Assembly (NCBI GenBank): GCA_012840485.1
Contig: DULG01000038.1
Span: 1 to 62,918, forward strand
DNA from: Clostridia bacterium
Lineage (GTDB): Bacteria; Bacillota; Thermoanaerobacteria; Thermoanaerobacterales; Thermoanaerobacteraceae
DNA: 62,918 nt
Direction: 5' to 3'
In this document: positions 35,632 through 52,045 of the stretch, one piece after another
How positions within the stretch are numbered: the first letter of the stretch is position 1
How the letters are laid out: each line of letters begins with the position of its first letter
Program-made: the position numbers and the translations under genes
Notes under the pieces: model-generated
The model's database searches: none
What the model saw: the letters and a program-made list of their open reading frames with translations, nothing else
Told to the model about the DNA's origin: nothing

Positions 35632-38379
35632 TTGACAAACAAAGAGAAAGTATTTAATTTGGTTAAAGAATTATCACAGGATATCAATATAAAAGAGAAA
35701 AAAGGAGTTACTGCGCAGGAAATAGCCCAGAAATTAAATTTAAGGAGAAATGTGGCGAGCCATTTGTTGAACGAGCTATACAAAGAGGGCAAAGTGATAA
35801 AGATAAACACAAGACCTGTATACTTTTTGGATAAGGAAGTTTATGAGAAAAGGGCAAAAGAGTTTAAAGAAGCTTCAAAAGATTTGGGTGTTCCTGTAAA
35901 GAATTTTACAGAAGACCCTTTTACAAAGCTTATTGGATATAATGGGAGTCTTAAGGAGCAAGTAAAGTTGTGCAAATCAGCTGCTTCTTATCCACCTAAT
36001 GGTCTTCCTATTCTGCTCATCGGCAATACAGGAGTAGGTAAAAGCTATATTGCGCAGCTTATTTACGAATATGCTAAATCTATTGGTGCTATAGATGAAA
36101 ATGCTCCCTATGTAATATTTAATTGTGCTGAATACGCCAATAATCCTGAACTACTTTCCGCAAACCTTTTTGGCTATGTAAAAGGAACATTTACAGGTGC
36201 TGATAAAGACAAACCCGGCCTTTTAGAAGAAGCGAATGGAGGATATTTGTTTTTGGATGAGGTTCACAGGCTTCCGCCAGAAGGGCAGGAAAAACTGTTT
36301 CTATTTTTGGACAAAGGCATATTTAGAAGGCTTGGTGAGACAGGCAATTGGAGGACAGCAAAAGTAAGGTTTATATTTGCTACAACTGAAGACCCTGAGC
36401 AAACTCTTACAAAGACTTTTTTAAGAAGGATACCATTAGTTGTAAACATCCCCTCTCTTTATGATAGGCCTTTACATGAAAGGTTACAACTTATCTATAA
36501 CTTTTACAAAAATGAGGCCAAAAATTTGGGAATGGATATTTTAATAAGCAAACAAGTGCTGAATGTTCTTCTTAAGACCAAAATATCCGGCAACATTGGC
36601 AAACTTATAAATGTTATAAAATACAGCTGTGCTCAAGCCTATAACCATGTCATAAGAAAGAAAACAAATATATTGCGAATCCATCTATATGACCTGCCAA
36701 GAGAGATGCAGGCTGATTTAGATATAATAAAAAGTAATTTTCATTTTAACGGAGTGTTAATTTCTCACAATAGAAAAGATGAAGATCTGGTATGGGATGG
36801 AGAAGACAATAAAGATGTATATGAAGTAGCAAACAAAATATTTGAGCTATTTGAGAAATATAGTAGTAAGGAAATAAATGCTGATAGTTTTAAAAAAGAT
36901 TCTTTGATTTATTTAAATGAGTTTACAGATAAAATAATTTTTAAAAACGATAACACGTATATAGATTCAATAGTTTTCAATGCTATTAAAAACGTAGTAG
37001 AAAATGTGTTAAATATAATACAAAATATGTACGGAATTAAATATTATGGCAATTCAGTTTTGGTATTGACTCATTTTATTAATTATTTATTAAGCGATGT
37101 AACTTACGAGAAGTATTCTGAGAATATAAAAGTGGTATTGGGAGTTTTGAAAAATGTTTTTCCCAAAGAGTTTATAATAGCTAATAAAATAGTTGAACTT
37201 ATTGAAGTTAACCTGGACGTCAAGCTCAACCAAATAGCTGTAATTTATTTTACACTTTATATTAAAAGCTTAAATAAAAGTGACAATACTAATCTCATAA
37301 ATTCTATAATAATAGCCCATGGTTATTCAACTGCCAGTAGCATAGCTAGTATCGCCAATAGGCTTTTGGGACAGTTTGTTTTTGAAGCTTTTGATATGCC
37401 AATTGAGATGTCGACACAAGAGATTATGCTAAAAGTTCAAGATTATTTAAAAAATATAGATACCTCCAAAGGGATTATTATATTAGTAGACATGGGTTCT
37501 TTAGAGGAGATATACAAGTCTTTGACTGACATTGTCGAGGGAGACATAGCAATTATTAATAATATCACTACTCAATTGGCTTTAGACGTTGGGAATAGAA
37601 TATTGCAAAATCAACCACTAGAGCAAATTGTAACAGAGGCAATACAGAAAAATAGTATTAGTCATAGGTTGATTAAATCTCAAAAACACAAAAGAAATGC
37701 TATTCTTACAACATGTATTACGGGGATTGGGACTGCTGTTAAAATAAAAGACCTTTTACATCAATGCCTTGCCAGCGAAGATGTTGAAATAATTGCATAT
37801 GATTACAATAGGCTTAAAGGCAACGGCATAAAAGATGAGGTATTCAAAAATTTCAATGTCAAGCTAATTATTGGTACAGCAGATCCTGGCATAAAGGAAA
37901 TACCTTATTTGTCTTTAGAAGATTTAATTACAGGGAATGGTAACGTATTCTTGAGTAAGGTCTTAAAAGGATTTGCAGATGATGTAACTATAGAGCGAGT
38001 TAATCAAGCAATAGTTAAGCTTTTCTCTTTACAGAATGTACTTCATTATCTTACTATATTAAATCCCGATAAAATAATTGATCAGGTTGAAAAAGCTGTC
38101 AGTGATTTAGAGTTACATCTTGGATTTAAATTTTCAAATGACTTAAAGATAAGTTTGTATATACACATGAGCTGCTTGATTGAAAGGTTAATAATGAAGG
38201 ATCCTATTACTTCTTATGAAAAACTAAAAGAATTTGAACAGTGTCATAGACACTTTATAGATTGTGTAAAATCTTCTTTTAGTGTAATAGAAGAAATCTA
38301 TAAAGTAGAAATTCCTACATCAGAGATAGGGTTTATATATGACATAATCCGTTCTAAAGTAAAAAATGTGGCTGTTTAG
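35632..38379 (+). CDS. Second LevR/ManR-type sigma-54 activator
   Basis: A 915-residue activator. It has a winged-helix N-terminus (about 1-68) and an AAA+ domain with Walker A GNTGVGKS (131-138). The sigma-54 loop reads GTFTGA (185-190) instead of the usual GAFTGA, and Walker B is YLFLDE. Next come a first PRD, an EIIA-Man-like domain (IIAHGYSTASS), a region with CITGIGTAVK and a C-terminal PRD (QCHRHFIDCVKSSF). TTG start behind AAAGGGGAG. It differs from the 22935 activator in its DNA-binding end and in lacking a C-terminal fructose-type EIIA. It is followed directly by a sigma-54 promoter that drives an ABC transporter cassette. Confidence 0.9.
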   Translation: MTNKEKVFNLVKELSQDINIKEKKGVTAQEIAQKLNLRRNVASHLLNELYKEGKVIKINTRPVYFLDKEVYEKRAKEFKEASKDLGVPVKNFTEDPFTKLIGYNGSLKEQVKLCKSAASYPPNGLPILLIGNTGVGKSYIAQLIYEYAKSIGAIDENAPYVIFNCAEYANNPELLSANLFGYVKGTFTGADKDKPGLLEEANGGYLFLDEVHRLPPEGQEKLFLFLDKGIFRRLGETGNWRTAKVRFIFATTEDPEQTLTKTFLRRIPLVVNIPSLYDRPLHERLQLIYNFYKNEAKNLGMDILISKQVLNVLLKTKISGNIGKLINVIKYSCAQAYNHVIRKKTNILRIHLYDLPREMQADLDIIKSNFHFNGVLISHNRKDEDLVWDGEDNKDVYEVANKIFELFEKYSSKEINADSFKKDSLIYLNEFTDKIIFKNDNTYIDSIVFNAIKNVVENVLNIIQNMYGIKYYGNSVLVLTHFINYLLSDVTYEKYSENIKVVLGVLKNVFPKEFIIANKIVELIEVNLDVKLNQIAVIYFTLYIKSLNKSDNTNLINSIIIAHGYSTASSIASIANRLLGQFVFEAFDMPIEMSTQEIMLKVQDYLKNIDTSKGIIILVDMGSLEEIYKSLTDIVEGDIAIINNITTQLALDVGNRILQNQPLEQIVTEAIQKNSISHRLIKSQKHKRNAILTTCITGIGTAVKIKDLLHQCLASEDVEIIAYDYNRLKGNGIKDEVFKNFNVKLIIGTADPGIKEIPYLSLEDLITGNGNVFLSKVLKGFADDVTIERVNQAIVKLFSLQNVLHYLTILNPDKIIDQVEKAVSDLELHLGFKFSNDLKISLYIHMSCLIERLIMKDPITSYEKLKEFEQCHRHFIDCVKSSFSVIEEIYKVEIPTSEIGFIYDIIRSKVKNVAV
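38240..38254. promoter_or_regulatory. Candidate upstream activator site (palindrome)
   Basis: A perfect 15-base palindrome, AGTGTCATAGACACT, lies inside the last codons of the activator gene, centred 160 bp upstream of the -24 GG of the sigma-54 promoter. The same GTGTC-N3-GACAC core recurs at 58005 at a similar distance from a -24 element. Enhancers for LevR-type activators normally lie at such distances. Confidence 0.45.
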
Positions 38380-38382
38380 AAA

Positions 38383-38419
38383 GTGCCAAGTGATATTACA
38401 CTGCTTGGCACATTTTTTG
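38383..38419 (+). terminator. Terminator hairpin shared with the sigma-54 promoter
   Basis: GTGCCAAG (38383-38390) pairs with CTTGGCAC (38404-38411), followed by ATTTTTT. The 3' arm and T-run are also the -24 box and spacer of the next promoter. Confidence 0.7.
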
Positions 38420-38422
38420 CAA
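38405..38422 (+). promoter_or_regulatory. Sigma-54 promoter of the ABC/amino-sugar cassette
   Basis: TTGGCACATTTTTTGCAA: GG (38407-38408) and GC (38419-38420) are exactly 10 bases apart, and the -24 TGGCAC and -12 TTGCA boxes are near-perfect. A purine-rich leader of about 230 bases with no supported gene runs from here to the lipoprotein gene at 38652. Confidence 0.85.
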
Positions 38423-38651
38423 CTACCATTAAGTTATAAGTGAAAAATATTGAAACCACGTGTAAAAGATTTGGGCAAAAATAAGAAGAAATAACTATTA
38501 CTAAAGGAGGGGGATAAAAAGTTACTTTTGTTAAACGATTAAACAGATTTAAAGAGGGAAGGGGGAAGATCTGGAGGAAAAGGCATAAAACTTGGAAAGG
38601 AAAATATTTACTAAATTATAGTAAACTCTAGGATAGGAGGAAGTTGTTTAA

Positions 38652-39947
38652 ATGAGAAAGTTTATTGCGCTAATAGTGGTGTTGGCATTGGTTATTGGGT
38701 GTATAGCAGGATGCAGCAATAAGGCTGCACAAAAAGAAGAACAACCTTCTCAGCAACCTGCTCAGGAAAAGGTTACTATAAAATTCTGGCAAGCAGGTGG
38801 AGATACTGCTGGAGCAGCCGAAAAAATGTCAGAGCTTATAAAAAAGTTTGAAGAAGCAAATCCCAATATCAAAGTAGAATATATGGCAATACCGTGGGCT
38901 GAAAATCCACATGAAAAATTTCAAACAGCTATAGTAGGTGGAGAAATAGCAGACCTTTTAGTTGTGGGGTCACCATTTGACCACGTCTTGGCAAATAGTG
39001 GTGCAATAATTTCTTTAGATCAATTTGCAGATGAAAATCTTAAAAAAGATTTAATGGATGTTTTTGCAAGAGAAGGTATATATCATGGTAAAAATAAAGA
39101 AATGGATGGAAAACTTATTTCTATTCCTTTATTTGGAGATGTAAGAACAATTGTGTATAATAAAGAAATTTTCCAGAAAAGTGGTGTTCCTGAACCTACA
39201 GAGTCTTGGACACTTGAAGAATTTAAGCAAAATGCTATAAAACTTACCAAAGATGATGTATATGGATTTGGTACTTCTGCAAGATATTCATCTCAGTGGC
39301 TTCCATTTGTATGGGATAAGGGTGGAGATATACTGAATGAACAAATGACAGAAGCAACAGTTACTACTCCAGAATGGAAAGAGGCAATTGAATATTATAT
39401 TGATTTACTTAATAAAACCAGTGTTCCAGGTTCTATTAATGTAAATTTAGCAGATATTCAGAAATCGTTTGCAGAAGGAAAAGTTGCAATGTTTGTTACT
39501 ACGCAGGATTATGTACAGGAACTTATGAAGGATCCTAATTTAAAAGATAAAATAGGTGTAGGTCAAATGCCCCATGATAAGTATCAAACTGCTTTTGCAG
39601 GGGCAGATGTTTTAGTAATTACCAAACAATCAAAACATCCAAAAGAAGCTTGGGAATTACTTAAATTCTTGGTATCTACCGAAAGTCAAATAGATTATTG
39701 CAAAACAGTAGGATTTTTGCCAGTAGTGAAATCAGCTGCAAGCGATCCTTACTTTACTAATGATCCTATCAAAAAAGGATTCTTACAAGCTCTTGAACAT
39801 GGTAAGTTTTATACAAAATCTGATAAAGCATCGGGTATTACTACAATATTACGTGCAGAAATACAAAATGCTATTTCAAAGAAGAAGACTGTGGATAAAG
39901 CTCTGGAAGATATGAAACAGGCAATTGACCTTCTTTTGAAGTCATAA
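38652..39947 (+). CDS. ABC transporter sugar-binding lipoprotein
   Basis: A 431-residue family 1 extracellular solute-binding protein. It has a lipoprotein signal peptide with lipobox IAGC (Cys21), a polar linker, then the fold opening VTIKFWQAGGD with a characteristic FAEGKVAMFV segment near residue 277. It would capture an oligosaccharide outside the membrane and pass it to the permeases encoded next. GGATAGGAGG gives a strong ribosome binding site. The hairpin after the gene probably raises its level over the permeases. The substrate is not directly visible; genes downstream suggest an amino sugar. Confidence 0.9.
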   Translation: MRKFIALIVVLALVIGCIAGCSNKAAQKEEQPSQQPAQEKVTIKFWQAGGDTAGAAEKMSELIKKFEEANPNIKVEYMAIPWAENPHEKFQTAIVGGEIADLLVVGSPFDHVLANSGAIISLDQFADENLKKDLMDVFAREGIYHGKNKEMDGKLISIPLFGDVRTIVYNKEIFQKSGVPEPTESWTLEEFKQNAIKLTKDDVYGFGTSARYSSQWLPFVWDKGGDILNEQMTEATVTTPEWKEAIEYYIDLLNKTSVPGSINVNLADIQKSFAEGKVAMFVTTQDYVQELMKDPNLKDKIGVGQMPHDKYQTAFAGADVLVITKQSKHPKEAWELLKFLVSTESQIDYCKTVGFLPVVKSAASDPYFTNDPIKKGFLQALEHGKFYTKSDKASGITTILRAEIQNAISKKKTVDKALEDMKQAIDLLLKS

Positions 39948-39963
39948 ATCCTACTTGATAGAA

Positions 39964-39991
39964 ACAGGCGCACCTAAAAAGGTGTGCCTGT
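39964..39991 (+). terminator. Hairpin after the binding-protein gene (attenuator)
   Basis: ACAGGCGCACCT (39964-39975) pairs with AGGTGTGCCTGT (39980-39991) over 12 bp with one G-T pair and a 4-base A loop. No T-run follows, so it likely protects the lipoprotein mRNA or only partly stops transcription. Confidence 0.65.
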
Positions 39992-40054
39992 CTATAAACT
40001 ATAGGCAATTTACTGGTGTTTGGTAGTAAAAAAATGTAAAAGTGGTGTAGAAGA

Positions 40055-40948
40055 ATGATTGTAACAAATAAAAAAGAAAAAATGGGCTACTATTTATTTC
40101 TTTTGCCAGCATATTTAATATTTACAGTGTTTATATTTTGGCCAGTTATTCACTCATCATATCTTTCCTTTTTTAAATATAACATAATAACTATTACTTC
40201 GCCAGATTTTGTCGGTTTAAAAAACTATAAATTTTTATTTAATGATGAAGTTTTTTGGACAAGTATAAAAAATACTGTGATATTTGTTATAAGTACTGTT
40301 CCTGTTAAAATGGCTTTGGGAATTATGCTTGCTATGCTTCTTAATCGTAAAGATTTGAGGTTTAAAACATTCTACAGAACCTGTTTTTATATACCTGTTG
40401 TAATTTCTATGGTTGCGATTTCAATCGTATGGATGTTGTTATTTAATCCAGGCCCTAATGGAGTAGTTAATATATTGCTATCAAAATTTGGAGTAAAGCC
40501 TCTGGGGTGGATTGCGGACTCGAATCTTTCTTTATTAACTGTAATGTTATTAGTAATATGGAAAGATTTGGGATATATTATGGTAATATATTTGTCAGGA
40601 CTTATGAGGATACCTGACGAAATCTATGAAGCAGTAGCTTTGGATCCCGTAAGTTCATGGCAAAAATTCTGGTATATTACATGGCCTTTGTTAAAACCTA
40701 CTACTATTTTCATTCTTATAACTCAAATAATAGAGTCATTCCAAGTATTTACGCCAATTTATGTAATAACGGAAGGAGGACCAGGATACAGTAGTACTAC
40801 CATAGTGAATTATTTATATCAAAAAGGTTTTAGAGAATATGAAATGGGCATAGCATGTGCAGTGGCTTACCTATTATTTGTGGTACTCCTCATATTGACC
40901 ATGTTGCAAAACAAAATCTCCAAGGCTGAAGAAATCCGGTATGACTAA
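40055..40948 (+). CDS. ABC sugar permease, MalF/UgpA type
   Basis: A 297-residue inner-membrane permease with six hydrophobic segments. The coupling loop that contacts the ATPase reads YEAVALDPVSSWQKFWYITW, followed by P, a variant of the EAA motif with Pro in place of the usual Gly after Asp. It pairs with the permease encoded 38 bases downstream. No ATP-binding subunit gene is present nearby, so a shared MsmK-type ATPase elsewhere is expected. Confidence 0.88.
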   Translation: MIVTNKKEKMGYYLFLLPAYLIFTVFIFWPVIHSSYLSFFKYNIITITSPDFVGLKNYKFLFNDEVFWTSIKNTVIFVISTVPVKMALGIMLAMLLNRKDLRFKTFYRTCFYIPVVISMVAISIVWMLLFNPGPNGVVNILLSKFGVKPLGWIADSNLSLLTVMLLVIWKDLGYIMVIYLSGLMRIPDEIYEAVALDPVSSWQKFWYITWPLLKPTTIFILITQIIESFQVFTPIYVITEGGPGYSSTTIVNYLYQKGFREYEMGIACAVAYLLFVVLLILTMLQNKISKAEEIRYD

Positions 40949-40986
40949 TATAAAGAGTTTGGAAAGTTAAAAGAAAGGGTGAAAAA

Positions 40987-41811
40987 ATGAAAAAAATTTT
41001 GCTGTATGTAATAATAACAATTACGGCATTTTTTATGCTTTCTCCCATGTTATGGATGGTTTCTACTTCTTTTTCAAAGGATTCTATAATTGCTTCAGCG
41101 AATATTATACCTAGAGATTTTACTATAGAAAATTATATAAAAGCATGGAATTTTCCTAAAGTGTTTGACAAAAGTGTTACATTCGGTACTTTCTTTTTGA
41201 ATAGTGTGATAGTTACAGCATGTTTAGTCGTAGGGGGGTTATTCGTAGACTCGCTTGCGGGATATGTACTTGCGAGAAAGGATTTTCCAGGGAGGAATGT
41301 GTTTTTCTATGCAGCGCTTGCAACTCTTATGATTCCTATTTATGTTACTGCAATTCCTATGTTCCTTATAGTGCGAGGTTTAGGATGGATAAATACCTAT
41401 GAAGCATTAATTATTCCATTTCTTTCATCAGGGTTTGGTATATATATGTTTAAGCAGTATTTTCAAACTATACCTATTGAATTAGAGGAAGCTGCAAAGA
41501 TTGATGGTTATTCTGATTTTTGGATTTATGCGCGTGTTATAGTGCCACTGGCAAAACCGGCATTTGGAACTATGGCAATACTTAAATTCATGTGGTCATG
41601 GAATATGTTTTTCTGGCCTTTGATTGTAACTACCGACATCAAAATGAAAGTGTTGCAATTGGGACTTACAATGTTTAGGGGACTTAATGTAACTCAGTGG
41701 GGACTTTTAACAGCCGGCATGACTATTGCTACTTTACCGCCTGTTATTATTTACATTATTTTTCAAAGATATTTTACAGGTGGATTAATGGCTGGTTCTT
41801 TAAAAGGTTAA
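40987..41811 (+). CDS. ABC sugar permease, MalG/UgpE type
   Basis: A 274-residue permease with six hydrophobic segments and a canonical EAA loop (LEEAAKIDGYSDFWIYARVI, then VPLAKPA). The C-terminus (YFTGGLMAGSLKG) is the usual ending of MalG-like subunits. It forms a heterodimeric channel with the preceding gene product. ATG start behind AGAAAGGGTG. The BadF-type kinase gene begins 18 bases after its stop. Confidence 0.9.
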   Translation: MKKILLYVIITITAFFMLSPMLWMVSTSFSKDSIIASANIIPRDFTIENYIKAWNFPKVFDKSVTFGTFFLNSVIVTACLVVGGLFVDSLAGYVLARKDFPGRNVFFYAALATLMIPIYVTAIPMFLIVRGLGWINTYEALIIPFLSSGFGIYMFKQYFQTIPIELEEAAKIDGYSDFWIYARVIVPLAKPAFGTMAILKFMWSWNMFFWPLIVTTDIKMKVLQLGLTMFRGLNVTQWGLLTAGMTIATLPPVIIYIIFQRYFTGGLMAGSLKG

Positions 41812-41829
41812 AAGCGAGGTTGAAACAAT

Positions 41830-42840
41830 ATGAAAATATTTGCAGGCTATGATTGCGGTGGTAGTAAAACAAAATGTATTCTTGCCGATGAAAATGGTGA
41901 AATTTTAGCCAGTGCTGTAGAAGGACCTTCTAATTTTTTGTCATGCGGCTATGAAATAGCAAAAAAATCCATAGAAGAATGCACCAGACAGGCTTTATTA
42001 AAGGCGGGTTTTAAGGAGAATAAAAAAATATACAGTGCATATGTAGGGTCTGCTTCCGTTGAGCTTTTCTCAAAAAATGAAAGAATATATAATTTTTATA
42101 AAAGTTCTATTAACACTGAATATTTAGGCATAAACAATGATGCTTATATAGCCTGGTATGGTACGACATTTGGGAAGACCGGTATTATTTCAATATCTGG
42201 CACAGGAGCAGTTACCTATGGAATATGTGAGGATGGAAGATGGAAAAAAGCAGGTGGGTGGGGATATCTTGTAGAAGATGAAGGATCAGGTTATTCCTTG
42301 GGCAGAAAGGCGCTACAGCTTGCAGTAAAGTCATATGATGGAATAATAGATAAAAATAAATTTGAAAAAGAAATAATGGAGTTTTTTTCTTTAAAATCTA
42401 TGAAGGAGCTTACGCCTATGCTGTACCAAGACCCTTACAATGGTGTAAGAATTGTAGCCTCTGCAGCTAAATGTCTCTTTAAATTATTTAATGAGGATTA
42501 TAGTTTAGCAATGGAGATATTAGAAGAGGCTACTTCTCAGATTGCAGACACCATATATGCCGTTTACTCTTATTTAGATTTAAAAAATCAATTTATTAGG
42601 ATAGGAGTAGCGGGAGGAATATTTTACGCGGGAGGTAACCGCCTGTTAGAAATGTTGGATAAAAAATTAAGAGAACGAGGAATGGAAATGTTTCATCTAA
42701 CTTTCCCTGAAATACTTCCAGAAGTATCGGCTTTGCTTCTTGCATATAATCAACTAAGGTGTGAAGATTATAAAAAAGCAGAGCAAACTATTATGCAACA
42801 ATTTAAAAAGTCCATTGAGGTGAAACAAAATTGTGTATGA
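41830..42840 (+). CDS. BadF/BadG-type ATPase, probable amino-sugar kinase
   Basis: A 336-residue actin-fold protein of the BadF/BadG/BcrA/BcrD family, which includes eukaryotic-type N-acetylglucosamine kinase and MurK. The ATP loops are AGYDCGGSKTKCILAD at the N-terminus, ISGTGAVTYG near 120 and GVAGGIFYAGG near 260. WGYLVEDEGSGYSLGRKAL is the conserved sugar-kinase stretch. It most likely phosphorylates the amino sugar brought in by the ABC transporter. It overlaps the next gene by 10 bases, suggesting translational coupling. A paralogue lies at 58221. Confidence 0.82.
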   Translation: MKIFAGYDCGGSKTKCILADENGEILASAVEGPSNFLSCGYEIAKKSIEECTRQALLKAGFKENKKIYSAYVGSASVELFSKNERIYNFYKSSINTEYLGINNDAYIAWYGTTFGKTGIISISGTGAVTYGICEDGRWKKAGGWGYLVEDEGSGYSLGRKALQLAVKSYDGIIDKNKFEKEIMEFFSLKSMKELTPMLYQDPYNGVRIVASAAKCLFKLFNEDYSLAMEILEEATSQIADTIYAVYSYLDLKNQFIRIGVAGGIFYAGGNRLLEMLDKKLRERGMEMFHLTFPEILPEVSALLLAYNQLRCEDYKKAEQTIMQQFKKSIEVKQNCV

Positions 42841-44132
42841 TGGCAGGGTACGGAGAAAAAGTGATTACCCCTCAACTACTAGGGCCTATGGCAGGATATG
42901 ATAGCAGAGAGGAGAATGCTAAAGGAATACACGACGACTTATATGCTAGATGCCTGATTTTAAAGATAGAGAAAAAGGCCGTTGTTTTGATTTCACTTGA
43001 TGTATTAGGAGTAGATGAATGCCTTATAGAAATGATTAAGAGTGCAATAATGGCGGTTGATAGGGAGGTAGAGAAGGAAGGCATATTTGTGTGTGCTACT
43101 CATACGCACAGTGGGCCTTCGGCTATATTTTCAAATAAAGTGACTTTTGATTTAAATTATGTTAATTTTGTTACTTTACAGTGTCGCGAAGCTTTTTTGG
43201 AAGCGATGAATGACATTAAAGAGGCAAGTATATATCATGGAACAAAAGATATTTTTGGTATTGCATCAAAAAGAAACATTTATGACCCACAAAAAAGTCA
43301 GGAAGGTATTAAATGTAAGTTTCTTAAAATAGAGAAAAATGACAGGGAAATAATGGTTATTAATTTCCCGTGCCACTTGACGGTGTTAGATGAAGGTAAC
43401 TTTTACTATTCTAAAGATTTAGTATATGGTTTAGAATTGGAATTAAAAGAAAATGGCAATAATAAGTTTCTATTCATAAATGGTGCTGCAGGAGACATAA
43501 GCACAAGATTTTGTAAAAAGGACGCCTCCTTTGAGGAAACCGAAAGATTGGGACGATTGCTTGCAAGAGAAATATTAAAAGAAAAAACTGAAATGCATAA
43601 AATCGACTCTTTACAGCCTTTTACCGTTAAAGAAACTTCCTTTCTAATAAAATATAAGGGAAATCTTTCTGAAGAAGAGAAAAAGGCAAAAAAAGCTCAG
43701 ATAGAAGACCTTCTTACTCAAATAAAAGATAAAAGGGCGCGAAGAGACCTTGAATCTGCGTTGTTAGTTCTTAATCGTCCTAATAGAGACTTTAGTAAAA
43801 TCCCTGGGGTCCTTAAATTAGAAGAGGGCTTTTTCAAAAGGATAAAAATGAGTTTAGCAATAATGGGACAGCTCGTTTTTATAGGAGTTCCTTTTGAGAT
43901 TTACTACAGTACAGGCATTAAAATTGAAAATATTTTAGAGAGAAAATATAGACACAGCATCGTGTTGATATTTGGATATTGTGGAGGATATGAAGGATAT
44001 ATTCCACCGGCGGAGAATTTTTCACAAATCTCTTATGAAGTTATTGCTTCACTTTTTGAGATGGATGCAGAGAAGAAACTACTTGAGGCTATTGAAAAAA
44101 TGGTAACAGAGATTGGTGGTGAGAATTTATGA
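42831..44132 (+). CDS. Neutral/alkaline ceramidase-like protein
   Basis: A 433-residue protein resembling the N-terminal domain of neutral/alkaline non-lysosomal ceramidases: it starts AGYGEKVITP, has DLYARCLIL and the zinc-type motif CATHTHSGPS. True ceramidases are longer (about 650 residues) and secreted. This one has no signal peptide and sits in a sugar cassette, so it is probably an amidase acting on an N-acyl amino sugar or peptide (inference). GAGGTGA lies 7 bases before TTG 42831; ATG 42837 is the alternative. It overlaps the next gene by 4 bases (ATGA). Confidence 0.7.
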   Translation: MCMMAGYGEKVITPQLLGPMAGYDSREENAKGIHDDLYARCLILKIEKKAVVLISLDVLGVDECLIEMIKSAIMAVDREVEKEGIFVCATHTHSGPSAIFSNKVTFDLNYVNFVTLQCREAFLEAMNDIKEASIYHGTKDIFGIASKRNIYDPQKSQEGIKCKFLKIEKNDREIMVINFPCHLTVLDEGNFYYSKDLVYGLELELKENGNNKFLFINGAAGDISTRFCKKDASFEETERLGRLLAREILKEKTEMHKIDSLQPFTVKETSFLIKYKGNLSEEEKKAKKAQIEDLLTQIKDKRARRDLESALLVLNRPNRDFSKIPGVLKLEEGFFKRIKMSLAIMGQLVFIGVPFEIYYSTGIKIENILERKYRHSIVLIFGYCGGYEGYIPPAENFSQISYEVIASLFEMDAEKKLLEAIEKMVTEIGGENL

Positions 44133-45259
44133 GTGAACGTTTTGATTTAAACGAAGCACTTGAATTATTAAAGGATTTCACTAATATGGATAGCCCTAGT
44201 GGTGAGAAAGATTATACTGATAAGTTTGTAGATCGTTTGGAAGCTGAATTTAGTAAGATTGGAATGATTGTAAGGCGGATAAAACAGCAACAAGTTGGGG
44301 ATTTTTTAGAATGTTACATAGGAAAAGGTGATAAAAAAATTCTTCTTTTAGGCCATACCGATACGGTTTTTCCCTCAGGTACTGCTTCAAAAAGGCCTTT
44401 TAAAAAAGAAAGAGAGGTCATTTACGGTCCCGGGGTACTTGATATGAAAGGTGGAATTGTAGTTCTTTTATATGCTTTGAAAAAGATAATTAAAAGCCTT
44501 CCGAATAGCATAAAACTGATTGTATTTTTAAACAGTGATGAAGAAATAGGATCTATCTACAGTAAAGATTATATTTTGAAACTTTCAAAGGACGCCATAG
44601 CTTGTCTTTCTTTCGAACCTGCTAAACCAGGGACGCTTACTGTAGAGAGAAAAGGAATTATCAGTTTTAAAATGACGGTTAAAGGGATCCCGGCTCATTC
44701 AGGGGTGAATTACGAAAAAGGCAGAAGTGCGATAGAAGAAATTGCTCGCAAAGTATGTGCTCTCTATGATGATATAAGAGATATGGAGAAAAATGTCAGT
44801 GCAAATGTAGGATATATACATGGGGGAAGCAAAGTAAATATAGTTGCGGAGCATGCAGAAGCTCAGGTTGAAATAAGGTACTTTAATTTGGAGAAAGAAA
44901 AAGAAATAAGGGGGAAAATTGAGAAAATAGTTAACACTACTTTTGTGGATGGGACGCATACACATATTACTATTCTTTCTGAAAGGCCTCCTTTAGTTGC
45001 CAATGAGGGCTGCAAAAAATTGTTTGAAATTGCTAGAGAAGAGGCGCAAAAACTGGGGAGGGAGATTAAAGGGAGAAGGACAGGAGGGGGAGGGGATGCC
45101 TCCTTTGCGGCCATATGGGGCATACCTGTTCTTGACGGACTTGGTCCTGAAGGAGAAGATTCTCACACAGAAAAAGAGTTTGTAATTGTAGAGAGTATTC
45201 CATTTAAGATAGAACTTGCTGCTACTACCATATTGAACATAGCAGAAGGAGGGTTTTAA
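44129..45259 (+). CDS. M20-family metallopeptidase (ArgE/DapE/CPG2 type)
   Basis: A 376-residue di-zinc peptidase/deacylase. Probable ligands are His76 and Asp78 in LLGHTDTVFP, Asp105 in GPGVLDMKGGI, the Glu pair 138-139 in NSDEEIGS, and a late His in EDSHTEKEF. The dimerisation domain (GIPAHSGVNYEKGRSAIEE) is present. It resembles glutamate carboxypeptidase-type M20 enzymes. In this cassette it may cleave an amide or peptide attached to an imported sugar. Start and stop overlap the neighbouring genes tightly (ATGA before, no gap after). Confidence 0.85.
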   Translation: MSERFDLNEALELLKDFTNMDSPSGEKDYTDKFVDRLEAEFSKIGMIVRRIKQQQVGDFLECYIGKGDKKILLLGHTDTVFPSGTASKRPFKKEREVIYGPGVLDMKGGIVVLLYALKKIIKSLPNSIKLIVFLNSDEEIGSIYSKDYILKLSKDAIACLSFEPAKPGTLTVERKGIISFKMTVKGIPAHSGVNYEKGRSAIEEIARKVCALYDDIRDMEKNVSANVGYIHGGSKVNIVAEHAEAQVEIRYFNLEKEKEIRGKIEKIVNTTFVDGTHTHITILSERPPLVANEGCKKLFEIAREEAQKLGREIKGRRTGGGGDASFAAIWGIPVLDGLGPEGEDSHTEKEFVIVESIPFKIELAATTILNIAEGGF

Positions 45260-45991
45260 ATGAATAACAGATATATAGAAGTTATTAAAAAGTTGATAAA
45301 TGAAATTGAAAGAACTCAATCCCAGGTCATAGAAGAAGTTTCGCAAGTATGTGCAGAAGCAATAAAAAATGACAAACTTTTATATTTCTTTGGGACGGGT
45401 CATTCTCACATGATATGCGAAGAACCTTTTTATAGAGCGGGGGGATTGGCCTGCGTATATCCAATACTAGAACCTTCTCTCATGCTCCACCAAGGAGGGT
45501 ATAAAAGTACACTTATGGAAAGAGTAGAAGGAATGGGGAAGATACTTTTGGAAGACAGTGGGGCAGATAAAGGAGATGTGCTCTTTTTAATATCGAATTC
45601 GGGTAGGAATCCTACAGTAATAGAAATGGCGATTGAGGCAAAAGGGAAAGGCATTATTACAGTTGCAATAACTTCACTTAAGCATTCCCATACTTTTTCC
45701 TCTAGGCATAAAAGTGGAAAAAATCTCTATGAACTCACTGATTATGTAATAGACAATTGTGGCATTCCAGGGGATGCTGCAGTTGAACTTGAAAACTTTC
45801 CTCAAAAGGTTGCACCTACTTCTTCAATTGCTGCTATTCTTATCGTCAATACTATAGTCACAAATGTTGTAGACAAATTATTATCGTGGGGGTTTACGCC
45901 TCCCGTGTTTATAAGTGCTAATACCGATGAAGGGGATAAGTTTAATCAAGACCTTCTAAAGAGATACAGACCACGTATAAAAGTGCTATGA
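45260..45991 (+). CDS. SIS-domain sugar isomerase-like protein (UPF0309-like)
   Basis: A 243-residue single SIS domain protein. FFGTGHSHMICEE and LISNSGRNPTVIEMAIEA are the two phosphosugar-binding loops of the SIS fold. It is shorter than MurQ etherases (about 300 residues) and lacks their extra helices as far as I can see, and looks like the UPF0309 group. A role in isomerising or deaminating an amino-sugar phosphate fits the cassette. It starts right at the base after the M20 stop codon. Confidence 0.78.
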   Translation: MNNRYIEVIKKLINEIERTQSQVIEEVSQVCAEAIKNDKLLYFFGTGHSHMICEEPFYRAGGLACVYPILEPSLMLHQGGYKSTLMERVEGMGKILLEDSGADKGDVLFLISNSGRNPTVIEMAIEAKGKGIITVAITSLKHSHTFSSRHKSGKNLYELTDYVIDNCGIPGDAAVELENFPQKVAPTSSIAAILIVNTIVTNVVDKLLSWGFTPPVFISANTDEGDKFNQDLLKRYRPRIKVL

Positions 45992-46252
45992 AAAAAGGTT
46001 TTGCTTTGTTGTTGCAGCGAGGGTACAACAAGAAGCAAGGGCTTCTTATTGTGATAAAAAATCAATTAGTAGTGCTTCTTATTATTATTATAAAGGATGT
46101 ATTAAGTGATTTTTAATGGTAGTCAATTGCAAAATGAAGTAAATATTAGAGCAAAAAAATTACATCATTAGAAAGGTAATAGAAAGATTATTGTTAATTT
46201 GAAGTTAAAGGCAAATAAGGGATTTGGTACAAAGGAAAAGGAGGAGAAGAAA
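45992..46252. other. Intergenic region with a doubtful 42-residue reading frame
   Basis: An ATG at 45988 overlaps the SIS gene stop (ATGA) and opens a 42-codon frame, MKKGFALLLQRGYNKK and on to an isoleucine-rich stretch. It has no ribosome binding site and no recognisable family. I see no terminator or consensus promoter. The purine-rich GGAGGAG at 46240 serves the next gene. Confidence 0.4.
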
Positions 46253-48394
46253 GTGAAAATTGCAGTTTTAAAAGCTGGTGAAGCTACTGATTTAAAAAGT
46301 GTAGATAAAGTTGTCCATATTCTAAAAGAATATGGAATAAAGGCTGATAAAATTTCTCCTGAAGACATTGCAAAAGGAAAACTTAGTAAATTCGATGTCT
46401 TGGTAATACCTGGAGGAAGGGCCCTCAAGCAAGCTGAAGCCCTTGGGGATGAAGGGCGAAAGATTGTAAAAGAATTTGTTGAAAAAGGTGGAGGCTACAT
46501 TGGTATTTGTGCTGGAGCTTACCTGGCTTCCAAAGGAGAAGGAAAATTTGCTTCCTACTTAGGAATTGTTAATACGCAGGCTGCGGATATTGAACATTGG
46601 GATAGAGGTTGTGGAGATGTACAGGTAAAAGTAAAAGATCCAAACCATCCTGTATTAAAGGCGTATTACGGTGTACTTACTGTTTATTATGAAAATGGAC
46701 CTATACTGAGGAGATCAAATGATTTAAATCTTGTACCTTATACTGAACTTGCTACGTATATTAGTGATATTCATGAAAATGGTCCAGAAAAAATAACACC
46801 TAATGCCTCTGCTCTTACTGCATCAGAATATGGCAATGGAAGGGTAGTATTATTTAGTTTTCATCCAGAGTTTACTGCCGGCTTAGAAGAAATGCTGGTA
46901 CAAGCGGCATTGTGGTGTGCAAAAACTTCTCCTGAGGAATATCCTCTTAAACTGAAGAAAACCCACGATGTAAAAATTAAAGGAGCATGGCTGTGGGGGA
47001 AGACAGTGTACAATTTAGGAGTAGATGGTGCGAAGATAATAACAGATCAAATGAAAGAATACGGTTTTACTGATATATTTCTTCTTGTAAAAGGGACGGC
47101 AGGGAGAGTTGATTATAATAGCAAAATAGCTTTAGGACTAGCTCATCCCGATAGAGATATATTAAAAGAAGTAGTAGAGGAAGCACACAAAAAGGGAATA
47201 AGGGTTCATGCTTGGTTTGTTGTGGGTTCTGACAAACAGTGGGCAACACTTCATCCTGAAGATAGAATGGTGCACATCAAAAGAGGACCGGATGATACAG
47301 CGGTGGCCCTATTATCTTTGAATTATAGAGAATATGTGAAAAATATTGTGAAAGAAGTTTTGGGGAATTATAAAATTGAGGGGATTCATGTGGATTATAT
47401 AAGATATCTTCATGTTGAATTTGGATTTAACGAAGATTATGAAATAGCAGAAGCAAAAAAGATGGGACTAAATATAGACAAAGTGAAGTATTTGATAGAT
47501 AGGACATATTATACCGAGAAAGATGGTAAATCTATATTTGAAGCATATGATAAGGGAGATAAAGATGTTATTGGTTGGGTAGGAATAAGGAGAAATGCTG
47601 TAAAATCTTTTGCTGAGGAAATAAAAAATGTAGTAAAATCTTACAATCCGAAAGTAAAATATTCCGCAGCTTTGAAACCAGAAGGAGCTTATACTTCGAA
47701 TTTCCTGATAGCTCAAAATGATTCTAAAACATTTGTGATAGTACATTGTGGACAGGATTATAAAGATGCCTTTTTGATTTATGATTTTGTAACACCTATG
47801 CTATATTGGGCGTATTACGGCAAGTCGCCCCAATGGACTGTAGTACTTTATAATAATGCGAAAAATATACTTGGTAAAGAAAGAGTATATCCGGGATTGC
47901 AGGCATACAGCCCTGTTAAAACTTCTGATCTTTCTGATGCAATAAATTATATAAAACGAGATGAAGGAGAAGGGATAGTTTTCTTTAAATATGACACCTT
48001 CGCTTTAAGTAAGATTGACATAAAAAAAATAAACAATAAAGAAGAAAAGATTATTAATATCATTTTAACTAATTCTTTAAGTAGAGATAATTTCTCAGAT
48101 GTAAATGTTACAGAAGAGGAAATAGAGAATGTTGATATTACAAAGGTTGAGATAGAGATGAAAGGCAATTATACAATCAAAAATATTTTAGAAAGTACAC
48201 CGGAAGTGACCATTCAAGTTTCTGAAAATAATAAATTGATTACAATAACAGGAAATCCATGTATACCTCAAAATGGTACTTTGAAAATTTCTGCAGTAAT
48301 TGAAGGGGAAGGCGACAAAAATTGCGAACCAGCTCAAGTGAGATTTTATGTCACTGACAAGTATTATGAAGTGAGGGTATATAATCAATACTGA
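46253..48394 (+). CDS. BPL_N amidotransferase-like domain fused to a GHL10 glycosidase-like domain
   Basis: A 713-residue two-domain protein. Residues about 1-225 match the BPL_N/glutamine-amidotransferase-like fold, with the nucleophile elbow GGYIGICAGAYLAS (Cys) and the late FSFHPEF (His-x-Glu). Residues from about 240 match the GHL10 family (GAWLWGKTVYNLG, RVHAWFVVGSD, and GIHVDYIRYLH with the probable catalytic Asp). A final 100-residue beta-rich region follows. GTG 46253 has GGAGGAGA 5 bases upstream; an in-frame TTG at 46199 has no ribosome binding site. No signal peptide is present, whereas many GHL10 proteins are secreted. The role is presumably in glycan or muropeptide breakdown inside the cell. 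Confidence 0.75.
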   Translation: MKIAVLKAGEATDLKSVDKVVHILKEYGIKADKISPEDIAKGKLSKFDVLVIPGGRALKQAEALGDEGRKIVKEFVEKGGGYIGICAGAYLASKGEGKFASYLGIVNTQAADIEHWDRGCGDVQVKVKDPNHPVLKAYYGVLTVYYENGPILRRSNDLNLVPYTELATYISDIHENGPEKITPNASALTASEYGNGRVVLFSFHPEFTAGLEEMLVQAALWCAKTSPEEYPLKLKKTHDVKIKGAWLWGKTVYNLGVDGAKIITDQMKEYGFTDIFLLVKGTAGRVDYNSKIALGLAHPDRDILKEVVEEAHKKGIRVHAWFVVGSDKQWATLHPEDRMVHIKRGPDDTAVALLSLNYREYVKNIVKEVLGNYKIEGIHVDYIRYLHVEFGFNEDYEIAEAKKMGLNIDKVKYLIDRTYYTEKDGKSIFEAYDKGDKDVIGWVGIRRNAVKSFAEEIKNVVKSYNPKVKYSAALKPEGAYTSNFLIAQNDSKTFVIVHCGQDYKDAFLIYDFVTPMLYWAYYGKSPQWTVVLYNNAKNILGKERVYPGLQAYSPVKTSDLSDAINYIKRDEGEGIVFFKYDTFALSKIDIKKINNKEEKIINIILTNSLSRDNFSDVNVTEEEIENVDITKVEIEMKGNYTIKNILESTPEVTIQVSENNKLITITGNPCIPQNGTLKISAVIEGEGDKNCEPAQVRFYVTDKYYEVRVYNQY

Positions 48395-48402
48395 TTAACA
48401 GG

Positions 48403-48442
48403 GGGAAGGTTTTTGCACCTTTGAGTGCAAAAACCTCCTTCT
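48403..48442 (+). terminator. Strong hairpin between the GHL10 and GH3 genes
   Basis: AGGTTTTTGCAC (48407-48418) pairs perfectly with GTGCAAAAACCT (48425-48436), extended by GGGGGA and TCTCC bases. No good T-run follows, so the read-through needed for the downstream gene is plausible. Confidence 0.65.
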
Positions 48443-48481
48443 CCTTTAATTAGAAGTAATACTTATGTGGAGGGATTTTAA

Positions 48482-50089
48482 GTGGAGATAAATAAGATGA
48501 GTTTAGATGAAAAAATAGGTCAAATGATTATGGCAGGTTTTTCTTCTGTTACTGCCAATTATTGTGGTTATGATGAGCATATAGATATACTCATAACTAA
48601 ATACAAAGTAGGGAATATTAGTCTATTTGCAAGAAATATAGGTTCAATAGAAGAAATTACTAAGCTTACTGAAACTATTCAAAAAAACATGATAGAACAC
48701 ATTGGTATTCCAGCTATTATAGGGACAGATCAAGAAGGAGGGGTGGTTACACAGGTTAGAGAAGGAGCTGTATTTTTTCCAGGCAATATGGCAGTTGCTG
48801 CAGCAAACATTGAAGGAAGTACCTTGAAAGAAGGAGAAATAGTAGGAGAAGGTCTTAGAGCACTTGGGATAAATCTCAATATAGCGCCTGTGCTGGATGT
48901 GAATAACAATTCCAAAAATCCCATAATTGGGGTAAGGTCTTATGGAGATGACCCTGAACAAGTGGCAAAGTTAGGAGTAGATTTTATAAAAGGAGTTCAA
49001 AGCAGAGGGGTGATAGCGACAGCGAAACATTTTCCAGGGCATGGAGATACAGAAATAGATACACATGTTGACATACCTACCGTCCCTTATGATCGAGAAA
49101 GGCTTGAAAGAGTAGAATTTTATCCTTTTAGAAAAGCAGTTGAAAATGGCGTTGACGCAATTATGACAGCTCATATTTATTTTCCTGCTATAGATGATGA
49201 AAAAATCCCTGCAACTTTATCCTACAATATTCTTACAAAGCTTTTGAGAGATAATATGGGTTTTAAAGGTATCATAATGACTGACTGTATGGAAATGGAT
49301 GCGATTTCAAAGAATTTTGGAATAGAAAAAGGGTCAGTTATGGCGATAAAAGCGGGTACTGATATGATAGAAATTTCTCATCATCTTGATGTTCAAATAA
49401 GAAGCGTAGAAGCTATAAAGAAAGCTGTCTTAAATGAAGAGATTCCGGAGGAGAGAATAAATGAGTCAGTGAGAAGGATATTGGAGATAAAGAAAAAATA
49501 TGGGTTGTTTGAAAATCCTTATCCGGATTTGATCAAAGCAAAAGAAGTGTTAAATTGCAAAAAGTATATAGAATTTGCTCGCCAGGTCAGCGAAAAAAGT
49601 ATCACTCTTATAAGGGACAGAAATAAGCTTATACCTCTTAATGTCGCAAATAAAAAAATTATTTCAATTTCTCCCGAGCCAAAAATGTTCATGGGAGGTA
49701 TTTGGGAAGCTGTTAGGAAAAAATACACTTTGTGTGAAGCCTTGAGAAAAGAGTTTGGAGGAAAATCTATTATCATTCCTTTTAATCCTGAATCGGGGAT
49801 GACAAAAGAAATTGTTAAAGAGTGTGAAAAAGCCGACTTAGTAATTATTGGGGTGTCCAAATTAAATTCAAATCCTGGGGAGGTAGAGCTTGTAAATAAA
49901 ATAAGCCGTTTAGGTAAGGATGTAATAGTAATCTTACTAAAAAATCCTTATGATGTTCTGTCATTAGAAGATATTTCCACATGTGTGTGTGCTTATGAGC
50001 ATACTCCTTTAGCAATAGAAAGTGTAATAAAAGTTTTGAAAGGTGAGATAAAATGCGAAGGAGTTTTACCAGTGAAAATAGAAATATGA
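48482..50089 (+). CDS. Glycoside hydrolase family 3, NagZ-like beta-N-acetylhexosaminidase
   Basis: A 535-residue GH3 enzyme with the NagZ-type catalytic loop KHFPGHGDTEIDTH (182-195), in which the His-Asp dyad acts as acid/base, and the nucleophile Asp268 in MTDCMEMDAI. A C-terminal GH3-C-like domain follows (from about 365). These enzymes release N-acetylglucosamine from muropeptides or chitin fragments. There is no signal peptide, so it acts on imported material, in line with the ABC transporter and BadF kinase upstream. GTG start behind GTGGAGGG. This gene is the best guide to the substrate of the cassette. Confidence 0.88.
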   Translation: MEINKMSLDEKIGQMIMAGFSSVTANYCGYDEHIDILITKYKVGNISLFARNIGSIEEITKLTETIQKNMIEHIGIPAIIGTDQEGGVVTQVREGAVFFPGNMAVAAANIEGSTLKEGEIVGEGLRALGINLNIAPVLDVNNNSKNPIIGVRSYGDDPEQVAKLGVDFIKGVQSRGVIATAKHFPGHGDTEIDTHVDIPTVPYDRERLERVEFYPFRKAVENGVDAIMTAHIYFPAIDDEKIPATLSYNILTKLLRDNMGFKGIIMTDCMEMDAISKNFGIEKGSVMAIKAGTDMIEISHHLDVQIRSVEAIKKAVLNEEIPEERINESVRRILEIKKKYGLFENPYPDLIKAKEVLNCKKYIEFARQVSEKSITLIRDRNKLIPLNVANKKIISISPEPKMFMGGIWEAVRKKYTLCEALRKEFGGKSIIIPFNPESGMTKEIVKECEKADLVIIGVSKLNSNPGEVELVNKISRLGKDVIVILLKNPYDVLSLEDISTCVCAYEHTPLAIESVIKVLKGEIKCEGVLPVKIEI

Positions 50090-50134: not shown

Positions 50135-51269
50135 ATGGAAGGTCCAAGAACGTGCAAAAAAGAAGAATTTAAAGATGCAATAAACCTTATAAACCAAATA
50201 TTTAGGATATCTCAAGGTCATAATCCTACAATGGCCGAGGAATTTCCACTCCTTCTTAATGAAGGAAATTTAGAAAATATGCGTGCCATTGTGGAGGACG
50301 GAAAAGTAGTGTCTATTGTAAATTACTATATTACCACGGTATTAATCGAAGGAATACCTATAAAAGTTGCTTCAGTAGGAGCAGTCTGCACAGACGAAAA
50401 ACACAGAGGAAAAGGATATGCTTCACTGCTACTAGATGATACAGAAAAAAGAATGAAAAAACAAGGAGTGGATGTTGTTCTTATATCAGGAGACAGGAAT
50501 TTATATTTAGAAAAAGAATACTGCAAAGCAGGATGCAATCAAATTTGATGCATATCCACAAGAAGAATTGAAGGAGGACGTAGAGCTCGTGGAGTATATA
50601 GATAAATATTTAATTGAAATGGCAAAAATGTATAATAAACAGCCTACAAGATACTATAGAAGCTTATTTGAATTTAAAAACCTTTTAAAAGGCAGAATTA
50701 TACCATGGGGGAGTTTTACTTATCAAACCTATTTAGTAAAGAAAGGGGGCCTTTTGAAAGGATATGTAGTACTCCGGATAGTTCATGATAACCCAAGAAA
50801 AGGATATATAATTGAATACAGTGGCGATGCAAATATAATTTACGAGAGTTTAAAGAAGATAGCTGCTGCTAACTCTTTGGAATATGTTCGTGTGCCCTGT
50901 ACTTTCAATGATGATATGCTTGGAGTAGTAGAGGAAAAAGGTAAATCTTACGAAAAGATTAATCTTTTGGGGACACTAAAAGTATTAAATTTTCAGCAAT
51001 TAATGGAAAAACTCAAACCGTATTTCTTACAATATGTCGAAAAAGATATTGTAGAAAATATAAAATTTATCGAAGAAGAAGATAACTATATAATTGAAAT
51101 TAAAAATGAAATATTGAAAATAGATGATGTGGTAAAACTTACAAAACTAGTTTTTGGAGATAAAGGATTTGGCATGGAAGTCCATGATATAAGTCCTAAC
51201 TTAAAAGAATTTATTTCAACGGTTTTCCCACTGCCTTTTGTATGGCCTGGAAATTTAAATTTTCAATAA
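50135..51269 (+). pseudogene. GNAT acetyltransferase with Eis-like C-terminus, single frameshift
   Basis: The first frame (50135-50548) encodes a GNAT domain with the acetyl-CoA loop DEKHRGKGYASLLL and breaks off after LYLEKEYCKAG. The second frame resumes at once as KFDAYPQEELKEDVELVEYI and runs to 51269 with a sterol-carrier-like end similar to Eis-type acetyltransferases. Together they give one protein of about 375 residues, a normal length for this group. A one-base change near 50525-50540 explains the split. Possible causes are mutation, a sequencing error or, less likely, programmed frameshifting. I see no classic slippery site. The substrate is unknown; position after the NagZ-like gene suggests an amino-sugar or aminoacyl target. 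Confidence 0.75.
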
Positions 51270-51338
51270 GTAGGGTTGATAACTAAATTTACACCTTAAT
51301 TTATAGCAAATGATAGCAAAGGAAAGGAGAAATTAATC

Positions 51339-51716
51339 ATGAAGATGCTAAAGACATTTCTTGGATGCTTTTTAACGGGGTTAATAGTACAGAGTGCGTG
51401 GGGAGCCCTTGTAAAATCTTATGGTCTTATAGGGGGCTGGTTTGCAGCCTTTATCATAATAAGTCCAATGTGGTTTTTAAACCATTACTTAGGCTTAATA
51501 GAGAATGAAAAAGATGGAGCATGGATTGATATGGCAGCAGGCATTGCTATTGCAGGAATGGCAAGGGATTTGTTCAAATCTCATTCGATAGCTCCTATGT
51601 TTAAAGCATTGCCAGTTTTATGTGCAGTGATAGCTGGAGGGACTGTAGGAGGATATTTAGCTGTTATCATAAGGCATGAAATGGAAAACAACGTAAAAAT
51701 GGAGGAAGAAGGATGA
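51339..51716 (+). CDS. Small integral membrane protein A of a pair
   Basis: A 125-residue protein with about four membrane helices and motifs GALVKSYGLIGGWFAAFIII, NHYLGLI and GAWIDMAAGIAIAG. It shares pattern with the next gene (GxxGGWxxAxxI, NHxLxLI, WVDM/WIDM...AG), so the two are divergent paralogues that probably form a heteromer. I am reminded of the small subunits called Lin0368-family putative glycerol transporters, but I am not certain. It overlaps the next gene by 4 bases. Confidence 0.6.
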   Translation: MKMLKTFLGCFLTGLIVQSAWGALVKSYGLIGGWFAAFIIISPMWFLNHYLGLIENEKDGAWIDMAAGIAIAGMARDLFKSHSIAPMFKALPVLCAVIAGGTVGGYLAVIIRHEMENNVKMEEEG

Positions 51717-52045
51717 TGTACAACTATATCGTAATGGCATTTGTGGCAGGTTTTATTCTTCCATTTCTCATAGAATTGTTATGGCATGAAATGGTAAGAT
51801 TATGGGGAGCAATAGGAGGTTGGATTGGTGCCGGTTTTATTGTAGGGACGGTATGGATAGTAAATCACGGACTGGACTTGATACATCAGATTGGACCATG
51901 GGTTGATATGACGTGGGGTTTGTGTGCAGGACTTTTCACGGCTTCAATAGTTCGCGGAGGAAAATTTAAAAAAGCGGTTCCTCACTTGGTTGCTGGCATA
52001 CTGGGAGGCATAGTAGCAGGGTATGTTTTATCATTGTTTGTTTAA
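51713..52045 (+). CDS. Small integral membrane protein B of a pair
   Basis: A 110-residue protein with about four membrane helices. LWGAIGGWIGAGFIVGTVWI, NHGLDLIHQIGPWVDMTWGL and a glycine-rich last helix (AGILGGIVAGYVLSLFV) parallel its upstream partner. The ATGA overlap with that gene means the two are made together. Small paired proteins of this kind are typical of heteromeric transporters or channels. The solute is unknown. Confidence 0.6.
   Translation: MMYNYIVMAFVAGFILPFLIELLWHEMVRLWGAIGGWIGAGFIVGTVWIVNHGLDLIHQIGPWVDMTWGLCAGLFTASIVRGGKFKKAVPHLVAGILGGIVAGYVLSLFV

Follow-up and report, generated by a model that had tools for sequence, protein, structure and literature searches.

A LevR-type activator with predicted control of both an Aga-type PTS operon and an ABC/amino-sugar cassette

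Introduction

Activators of the LevR/ManR/MptR-CelR group, such as Bacillus subtilis LevR and Enterococcus faecalis MptR, are described with operons of the phosphotransferase system (PTS), both in work on sigma-54/PRD activators at large (PMC6615313, PMC3162934, PMC7438776) and in reports on LevR/CelR-type proteins (PMC12316311, PMC6510779, PMC2941500, PMC8262876). For LevR and MptR, activation depends on HPr, inhibition depends on EIIB acting through the second PRD domain (PRD2), and PTS substrate relieves that inhibition (PMC2941500, PMC8262876). ATP-binding cassette (ABC) genes rise in an E. faecalis rpoN mutant, an effect ascribed to lost catabolite control (PMC8262876), and in the literature searched we found no report of direct control of an ABC importer by a LevR/CelR-type activator. 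Here we analyze a LevR-type activator encoded in a 62,918-nucleotide stretch (the window), which is an entire contig of a 2.65-Mb genome. Its source, a heat-loving anaerobe, shares its genus with Caldanaerobacter subterraneus DSM 13054. The locus shares with the group its domain content, a sigma-54 site and a PTS as the probable sensor; it differs in that a second operon, encoding an ABC importer, has the same enhancer-promoter module, and in that one enhancer lies inside the activator coding sequence. On the sequence evidence, we consider it probable that this is the activator of an Aga-type PTS regulon that took in an ABC/amino-sugar cassette and drives both through two modules.

The activator and two predicted enhancer-promoter modules

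The original prediction had placed a sigma-54 promoter and an ABC/amino-sugar cassette behind a LevR-type activator. This arrangement is confirmed, with an intact activator, a sigma-54-like site and the downstream genes as listed (Table 1). The protein matches the sigma-54 AAA domain (PF00158, 140 bits; cut-off 20.2), PRDs in two stretches (PF00874, 80.4 bits) and the mannose-type EIIA domain (PF03610, 33.5 bits), and visual inspection locates an EIIA-type His (AHGYST), an EIIB-like Cys (TTCITGIGT) and a PRD2 His (YIHMSC). Its best NCBIfam match over the full length is the model of DagR, the D-glucosaminate PTS regulator (NF047795, 588.3 bits), far below the equivalog cut-off of 1400; identity with DagR was rejected on this score, and both the PTS and the cargo are different. 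The genome encodes rpoN.

The first sigma-54 site begins 26 bp past the activator stop codon, with the palindrome AGTGTCATAGACACT 166 bp upstream of it, and the pattern TTGGCAYNNNNTTTGC occurs without mismatch once in the window. Since a terminator-like hairpin uses the -24 half of this site as its right arm, the site by itself is weak evidence, and pattern scans alone, with counts near or little above those of shuffled sequences, could not exclude chance. Pairing with the enhancer did: the window has two cases of a palindrome 90-260 bp upstream of a sigma-54 site, and 300 dinucleotide shuffles gave none. Furthermore, AGTGTCNNNGACASW occurs exactly at two places in the whole genome, 38240 and 58004, each before one of the two operons, and its copies with at most one mismatch are rarer genome-wide than in the reversed control (5 forward and 11 reverse, versus 20 and 21).

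Because the copy at 38240 is coding, it could be analyzed at synonymous sites. Between two genera, identical amino acids are encoded by the same codon in 53% of cases (7301/13727), and codon identity reaches 100% over FEQCHR and EQCHRH, which rank 1 and 2 of 818 six-codon windows (mean 0.53). The enhancer codons are thus the most conserved synonymous stretch of the activator.

Table 1. Predicted features of the activator locus, the cassette and the PTS operon (positions in the window).
Feature	Position	Strand	Remarks
LevR-type sigma-54 activator	35632..38379	+	915 aa; order HTH, AAA+, PRD, EIIA-man, EIIB-like, PRD
Predicted enhancer (upstream activating sequence) AGTGTCATAGACACT	38240..38254	+	perfect palindrome in activator 3' coding end, codons for QCHRH
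Terminator-like hairpin and T-run	38383..38418	+	right arm = -24 element
Predicted sigma-54 promoter 1 TTGGCACATTTTTTGC	38405..38420	+	GG-N10-GC; before ABC cassette
Leader element GTTAAACGATTAAACAG	38530..38546	+	operator-like; C. subterraneus counterpart TAAACGATTGACAG at L046:4758-4771
ABC sugar-binding lipoprotein (SBP)	38652..39947	+
ABC permease, MalF/UgpA type	40055..40948	+
ABC permease, MalG/UgpE type	40987..41811	+
BadF-type kinase	41830..42840	+	closest solved relative is a MurNAc/GlcNAc kinase
Ceramidase_alk-like amidase (Cer)	42831..44132	+
M20 peptidase	44129..45259	+	glutamate-carboxypeptidase-like
SIS protein	45260..45991	+	PRK02947; related to SCO4393
BPL_N-GHL10 fusion	46199..48394	+
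GH3 beta-N-acetylglucosaminidase-like enzyme	48482..50089	+	signal peptide not seen by eye
GNAT, ORF 50568 (no family), two DUF6905 genes	50135..52045	+	same order in C. subterraneus
Predicted enhancer copy 2 AGTGTCACAGACACA	58004..58018	+	non-coding
Predicted sigma-54 promoter 2 TTGGCATGCTTTTTGT	58137..58152	+	GG-N10-GT (-12 GT); overlaps hairpin 58112-58146
Second BadF-type kinase (BadF2)	58221..59207	+	first PTS operon gene
PTS EIIB, galactosamine/N-acetylgalactosamine type	59263..59736	+	TIGR00854 188.8 bits, cut-off 163.6
PTS EIIC, AgaW-like	59742..60506	+
PTS EIID, AgaE-like	60496..61287	+
PTS EIIA, AgaF-like	61324..61734	+
Tagatose-bisphosphate aldolase, GatY/KbaY type	61763..62626	+	NF009374 427.7 bits, cut-off 383
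PfkB-type sugar-phosphate kinase	62623..62918	+	cut by contig end

Orthologous activators in relatives

We compared the activator across 61 genomes, 45 of which gave a match, and identified 11 relatives carrying an orthologue at 72-89% identity (partial in one, G019). In ten of these, a mannose-family PTS stands directly behind the activator with a sigma-54 site between them, the linkage being established by open reading frames (ORFs) or tblastn for seven loci (L039, L040, L042, L043, L045, L047, L048) and by near-identical downstream DNA for three (L041, L044, L049). The inverted repeat AGTGTCATAGACACT lies 106-252 bp upstream of every sigma-54 site copy compared, with 0-3 mismatches.

The eleventh relative, C. 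subterraneus (G003), has the same ABC cassette, followed by BadF2-EIIB-EIIC-EIID-EIIA-aldolase-PfkB-AgaS. The cassette is confined to this genome and that of the window, as judged by the full-length GHL10 fusion (2/61 genomes) and Cer (2/37), and a search of genome contigs with the SBP returned one locus, in the species of G003. The C. subterraneus site right behind the activator has lost its -12 GC, and a complete second module, with an enhancer at L046:4564 and the sigma-54 site TTGGCATGGTTTTTGC at 4669, stands 197 bp before the SBP gene. The two genomes thus keep an enhancer and sigma-54 module before the cassette through different DNA, and each has a further module ahead of BadF2 and the PTS genes. 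Since such a module precedes the SBP gene in both cassette-bearing genomes, LevR control of the cassette, alongside the PTS, is well supported, and the predicted role of the activator in driving it is very probably correct; the notion of a merely inserted cassette outside LevR regulation was dropped on the C. subterraneus module and the shared enhancer. The further idea that the cassette is served instead of a PTS did not hold, given the ten orthologues directly before PTS genes and the separate module copy of the window PTS operon (58221-62918); the predicted regulon had also been ended too early, as the Aga-type PTS operon, which is the other predicted target, begins only at 58221.

Several smaller features accompany this comparison. 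A C39-peptidase-like fragment (L046:4096-4534) lies between activator and SBP genes in C. subterraneus, and its Cer gene was rejected as a pseudogene, the reported TAG falling at the C-terminal end. Some 105 bp ahead of the SBP start codon, the leaders of both genomes share the element TAAACGATTRA(A)CAG. A -24 box doubling as the right arm of a hairpin was seen at both window promoters (38383-38418, 58112-58146), at L046:4644-4678 and at L044:4000-4056; by eye, this overlap is absent from L039-L041 and from the region before BadF2 in C. subterraneus. In a deeper orthologue (G208, 47% identity), the order behind a sigma-54 site is LevR-Cer-PTS-NanE-SIS, with Cer and SIS inside the PTS operon.

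LevR, PTS and ABC genes in other lineages

The near-relative survey covered 84 LevR-family neighborhoods (75 chosen from the activator comparison and 9 others), of which almost all come from close relatives and 70 have an activator of at least 800 aa. In each of these 70, PTS genes lie no more than 5 kb away, and one (L157, in genome G040) has an ABC importer as well; the 14 neighborhoods with short activators include PRD-less forms without PTS. A sample of 249 genomes from the phylum yielded 38 with a strong match, and 40 of the 65 matching neighborhoods were retrieved (16 had already been seen and 9 were not fetched). PTS genes lie near by in 34 of these 40 and further off in L211 and L213, and an ABC label appears in five (L194, L208, L210, L211, L213). 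PTS and ABC labels are phmmer matches to a small reference set, and the ABC counts are therefore lower bounds.

In L194 and L210, the activator is followed by a cel-type PTS, an SBP, two permeases and a roughly 800-aa protein (a GH94 phosphorylase by Pfam in L194), and in L211 and L213 by an FGGY kinase, an SBP, a permease, an ATPase and a mannose-family PTS (Pfam on L211); the L208 binding protein is upstream of its activator. Sigma-54 sites precede the ABC block in L157 (7192), L194 (7299), L210 (7066), L211 (5301) and L213 (5256), and the PTS in L211 (11415) and L213 (11570). As a yardstick, such a site precedes 78 of 116 genes directly behind an activator and 46 of 978 other same-strand genes. 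Liv-type ABC genes (branched-chain-type, by eye) behind the cel PTS in L107 and L110 have no sigma-54 site before the binding protein and were not counted.

Five loci from three other lineages thus combine activator, PTS and ABC importer, each with a sigma-54 site preceding the ABC block. The combination had been called unusual, which is partly right: among near relatives a single full-length activator has both importers beside it, but the trio recurs in these further lineages. The two L213 promoter regions are mutual copies, 65% alike across 246 bp, and the copied stretch takes in a remnant of the activator C-terminus. A second operon could plausibly be gained through duplication of the activator 3' end together with its promoter.

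The Aga-type PTS operon and the amino-sugar cassette

The PTS operon is intact as far as the contig end. Its EIIB also exceeds the curated Aga IIB models (NF007288, 186.3 against a cut-off of 180; NF008508, 181.6 against 180), and the remaining components stay below their equivalog cut-offs (AgaW 258 of 300, AgaE 276 of 500, AgaF 126 of 130), so that by score EIIC, EIID and EIIA are related to Aga proteins and are not equivalogs. The operon has EIIB, EIIC, EIID, EIIA, tagatose-bisphosphate aldolase and PfkB in common with Aga/Gam regulons for N-acetylgalactosamine (GalNAc)/galactosamine, and AgaS is present in relatives. The regulators known for such regulons are AgaR proteins, in contrast with the LevR-type activator of the window. 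Between the DUF6905 genes and this operon, the window holds LysR, Na+/sulfate-type symporter, PGM-like and beta-CASP genes (52153-57991), which are absent there in C. subterraneus.

All ORFs are intact. Cer matches neutral ceramidases weakly and keeps the HTHSGP and GAAGDIS motifs by eye. The nearest solved relatives of the SIS protein are 3cvj and SCO4393, the latter presumably the same protein as NagS. It exceeds NF002805 (307 bits over 135), and its assignment as the N-acetylmuramic acid (MurNAc) 6-phosphate etherase MurQ was rejected at 25.9 bits (NF003915, cut-off 168). NagS is described as a GlcNAc-6-phosphate dehydratase in a report that also names SCO4393 (PMC12680351). The GH3 enzyme has as best solved relative the GH3 beta-N-acetylglucosaminidase 6k5j (390 bits), is also near YbbD/NagZ, and scores 195.4 bits against the NagZ model NF003740, just below its cut-off of 207. 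The acetyltransferase (50135-51269) is apparently spread over two adjacent ORFs (137 and 233 aa), the second without a Pfam match, and both ORFs are also present in C. subterraneus.

The kinase and GH3 enzyme fit amino sugars, and a muropeptide is one candidate substrate among several, but by score the SIS protein is no MurQ, and the closest enzymes of solved structure are of GlcNAc type.

Relatives of Cer occur in 20 of 299 genomes, and we viewed 19 loci from 17 genomes among 26 matches. Cer and SIS are often adjacent there, with a CUT1 importer in six loci (L216, L218, L219, L220, L221, L225) and with mannose-family PTS genes in three (L215, L217, L224). Three further loci have ABC genes and no SIS label (L223, L229, L232), L230 has the Cer-SIS pair with no importer on the same strand, and neither arrangement is clear in the remainder. 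RpiR regulators accompany all five ABC versions checked (L216, L218, L219, L221, L225). These RpiR-Cer-SIS-NAGidase-ABC cassettes of other Bacillota (L216, L218-221, L225) resemble the window cassette in Cer-SIS adjacency and CUT1 importer, with GH3 in L219, and differ in their RpiR regulator, in place of the predicted LevR control of the window, and in the lack of PTS genes from the stretches seen. Since the Cer-SIS core goes with RpiR and ABC genes or with a mannose-family PTS elsewhere, including G208, the importer and regulator appear exchangeable, and the cassette is best read as a putative N-acetylhexosamine-conjugate salvage set. As an adjacent pair, Ceramidase_alk-like and SIS genes recur in Bacillota (L215-L225, L177; window 42831-45991), with ABC or mannose-family PTS importers.

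Proposed mechanism and alternative explanations

We propose that the activator binds AGTGTCATAGACACT enhancers located 130-170 bp ahead of two sigma-54 promoters. Promoter 1, just behind the activator gene, would drive SBP-permease-permease-kinase-Cer-M20-SIS-GHL10-GH3, and promoter 2, at 58137, BadF-EIIB-EIIC-EIID-EIIA-aldolase-kinase. By analogy with LevR and MptR, phosphorylation by HPr would activate the protein, and the Aga EIIB would phosphorylate PRD2, keeping it off for as long as no PTS sugar draws the phosphate away. The sugar sensed by the PTS would then induce the ABC importer. The importer may take up a larger amino-sugar conjugate for trimming by cytosolic GH3, GHL10, M20 and Cer proteins, the BadF kinase and SIS protein would process the hexosamine, and the PTS would take up the free amino sugar.

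Several observations weigh against this proposal. The sigma-54 contact loop of the activator is GTFTGA, unlike the GAFTGA of each of the ten orthologues that include it; in Francke 2011, T at this loop position is given as putative. Promoter 2 has GT in place of GC at -12 in both cassette-bearing genomes, and promoter 1 overlaps the hairpin at 38383-38418, which folds at -14 kcal/mol (z -3.0). Conservation of the coding enhancer is partly protein-level, and the motif was learned partly from the sites that it explains, including the two window modules. Among deep orthologues, no enhancer was found for L175 (a fragment) or L176, and L177 and L178 have only versions with 2-3 mismatches. Genes, modules and their conservation are read from sequence, and binding, direction of control, inducer and substrate are inferred.

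The hairpin also raises the question of whether promoter 1 is vestigial. In that case, the hairpin and its T-run would only terminate the activator transcript, a sigma-A promoter within the 230-bp leader, controlled by a different regulator, would serve the cassette, and the activator would act on the PTS at 58221 alone. A sigma-70-like match (9 of 12) at 38593, the conserved operator-like element at 38530, the broken -12 of the equivalent C. subterraneus site and the RpiR control of ABC-Cer-SIS cassettes elsewhere would all suit such a scenario. Nevertheless, sigma-70-like matches in the region are at chance level (57 found, 60.5 expected), the sigma-54 site and enhancer are perfect in the window, and C. 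subterraneus has a complete module closer to the SBP gene, so that we regard a vestigial promoter 1 as unlikely. Decay of the whole regulon, with both operons falling silent or becoming constitutive through the altered loop or weak promoters, could draw on GTFTGA being unique among the eleven sequences that include that part and on the -12 GT of promoter 2. Set against this, all ORFs are intact, the EIIA His, EIIB-like Cys and PRD2 His are present by motif, and a GTYTGA loop occurs in 2 of 124 surveyed activators, both with PTS genes beside them. We consider such decay very improbable. Even less credible is the switch from PTS to ABC cassette with loss of PTS control, as originally envisaged: the cassette does lie directly behind the activator and the -12 of promoter 2 is non-consensus, but the PTS operon is intact to the contig end behind an exact enhancer, and the same GT is found in C. 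subterraneus, whose PTS operon also has AgaS.

Returning to joint control of PTS operon and cassette, we lean slightly toward a more general proposal, in which LevR-type activators carry a portable module, consisting of an enhancer in their own 3' coding end and a sigma-54 promoter, whose duplication repeatedly subjects ABC importers to PTS sensing; a single PTS sugar would then license ABC uptake of a complex glycan. Candidate cases are the window, C. subterraneus and G166/G243, to which G233, G257 and G040 add ABC blocks preceded by sigma-54 sites; in G243, the activator 3' end and promoter are visibly duplicated before the PTS. Should such activators indeed govern ABC importers, a further class of transporter would take its signal from PTS phosphorylation, and predicting regulons from adjacent PTS genes alone would overlook cargo. 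With its predicted enhancer hidden in the activator gene, such a regulon can be sought through conservation at synonymous sites, and the two genomes of C. subterraneus type provide a natural before-and-after comparison of promoter rewiring.

Other LevR-family genes in the genome

A second LevR-family activator in the window (22935-29291), with EIIA_2 at its C-terminus, is an ordinary member of the group, and a perfect sigma-54 site at 25868 stands directly before the galactitol-type EIIC gene of that locus. Elsewhere in the genome (G000:C1:97235-98395), a PRD-less LevR-like protein of about 445 aa, composed of HTH and AAA+ domains, has no PTS neighbors. This protein is kept in several genomes of the genus (L164-L169, L074, L080, L081) and is apparently split in L081.

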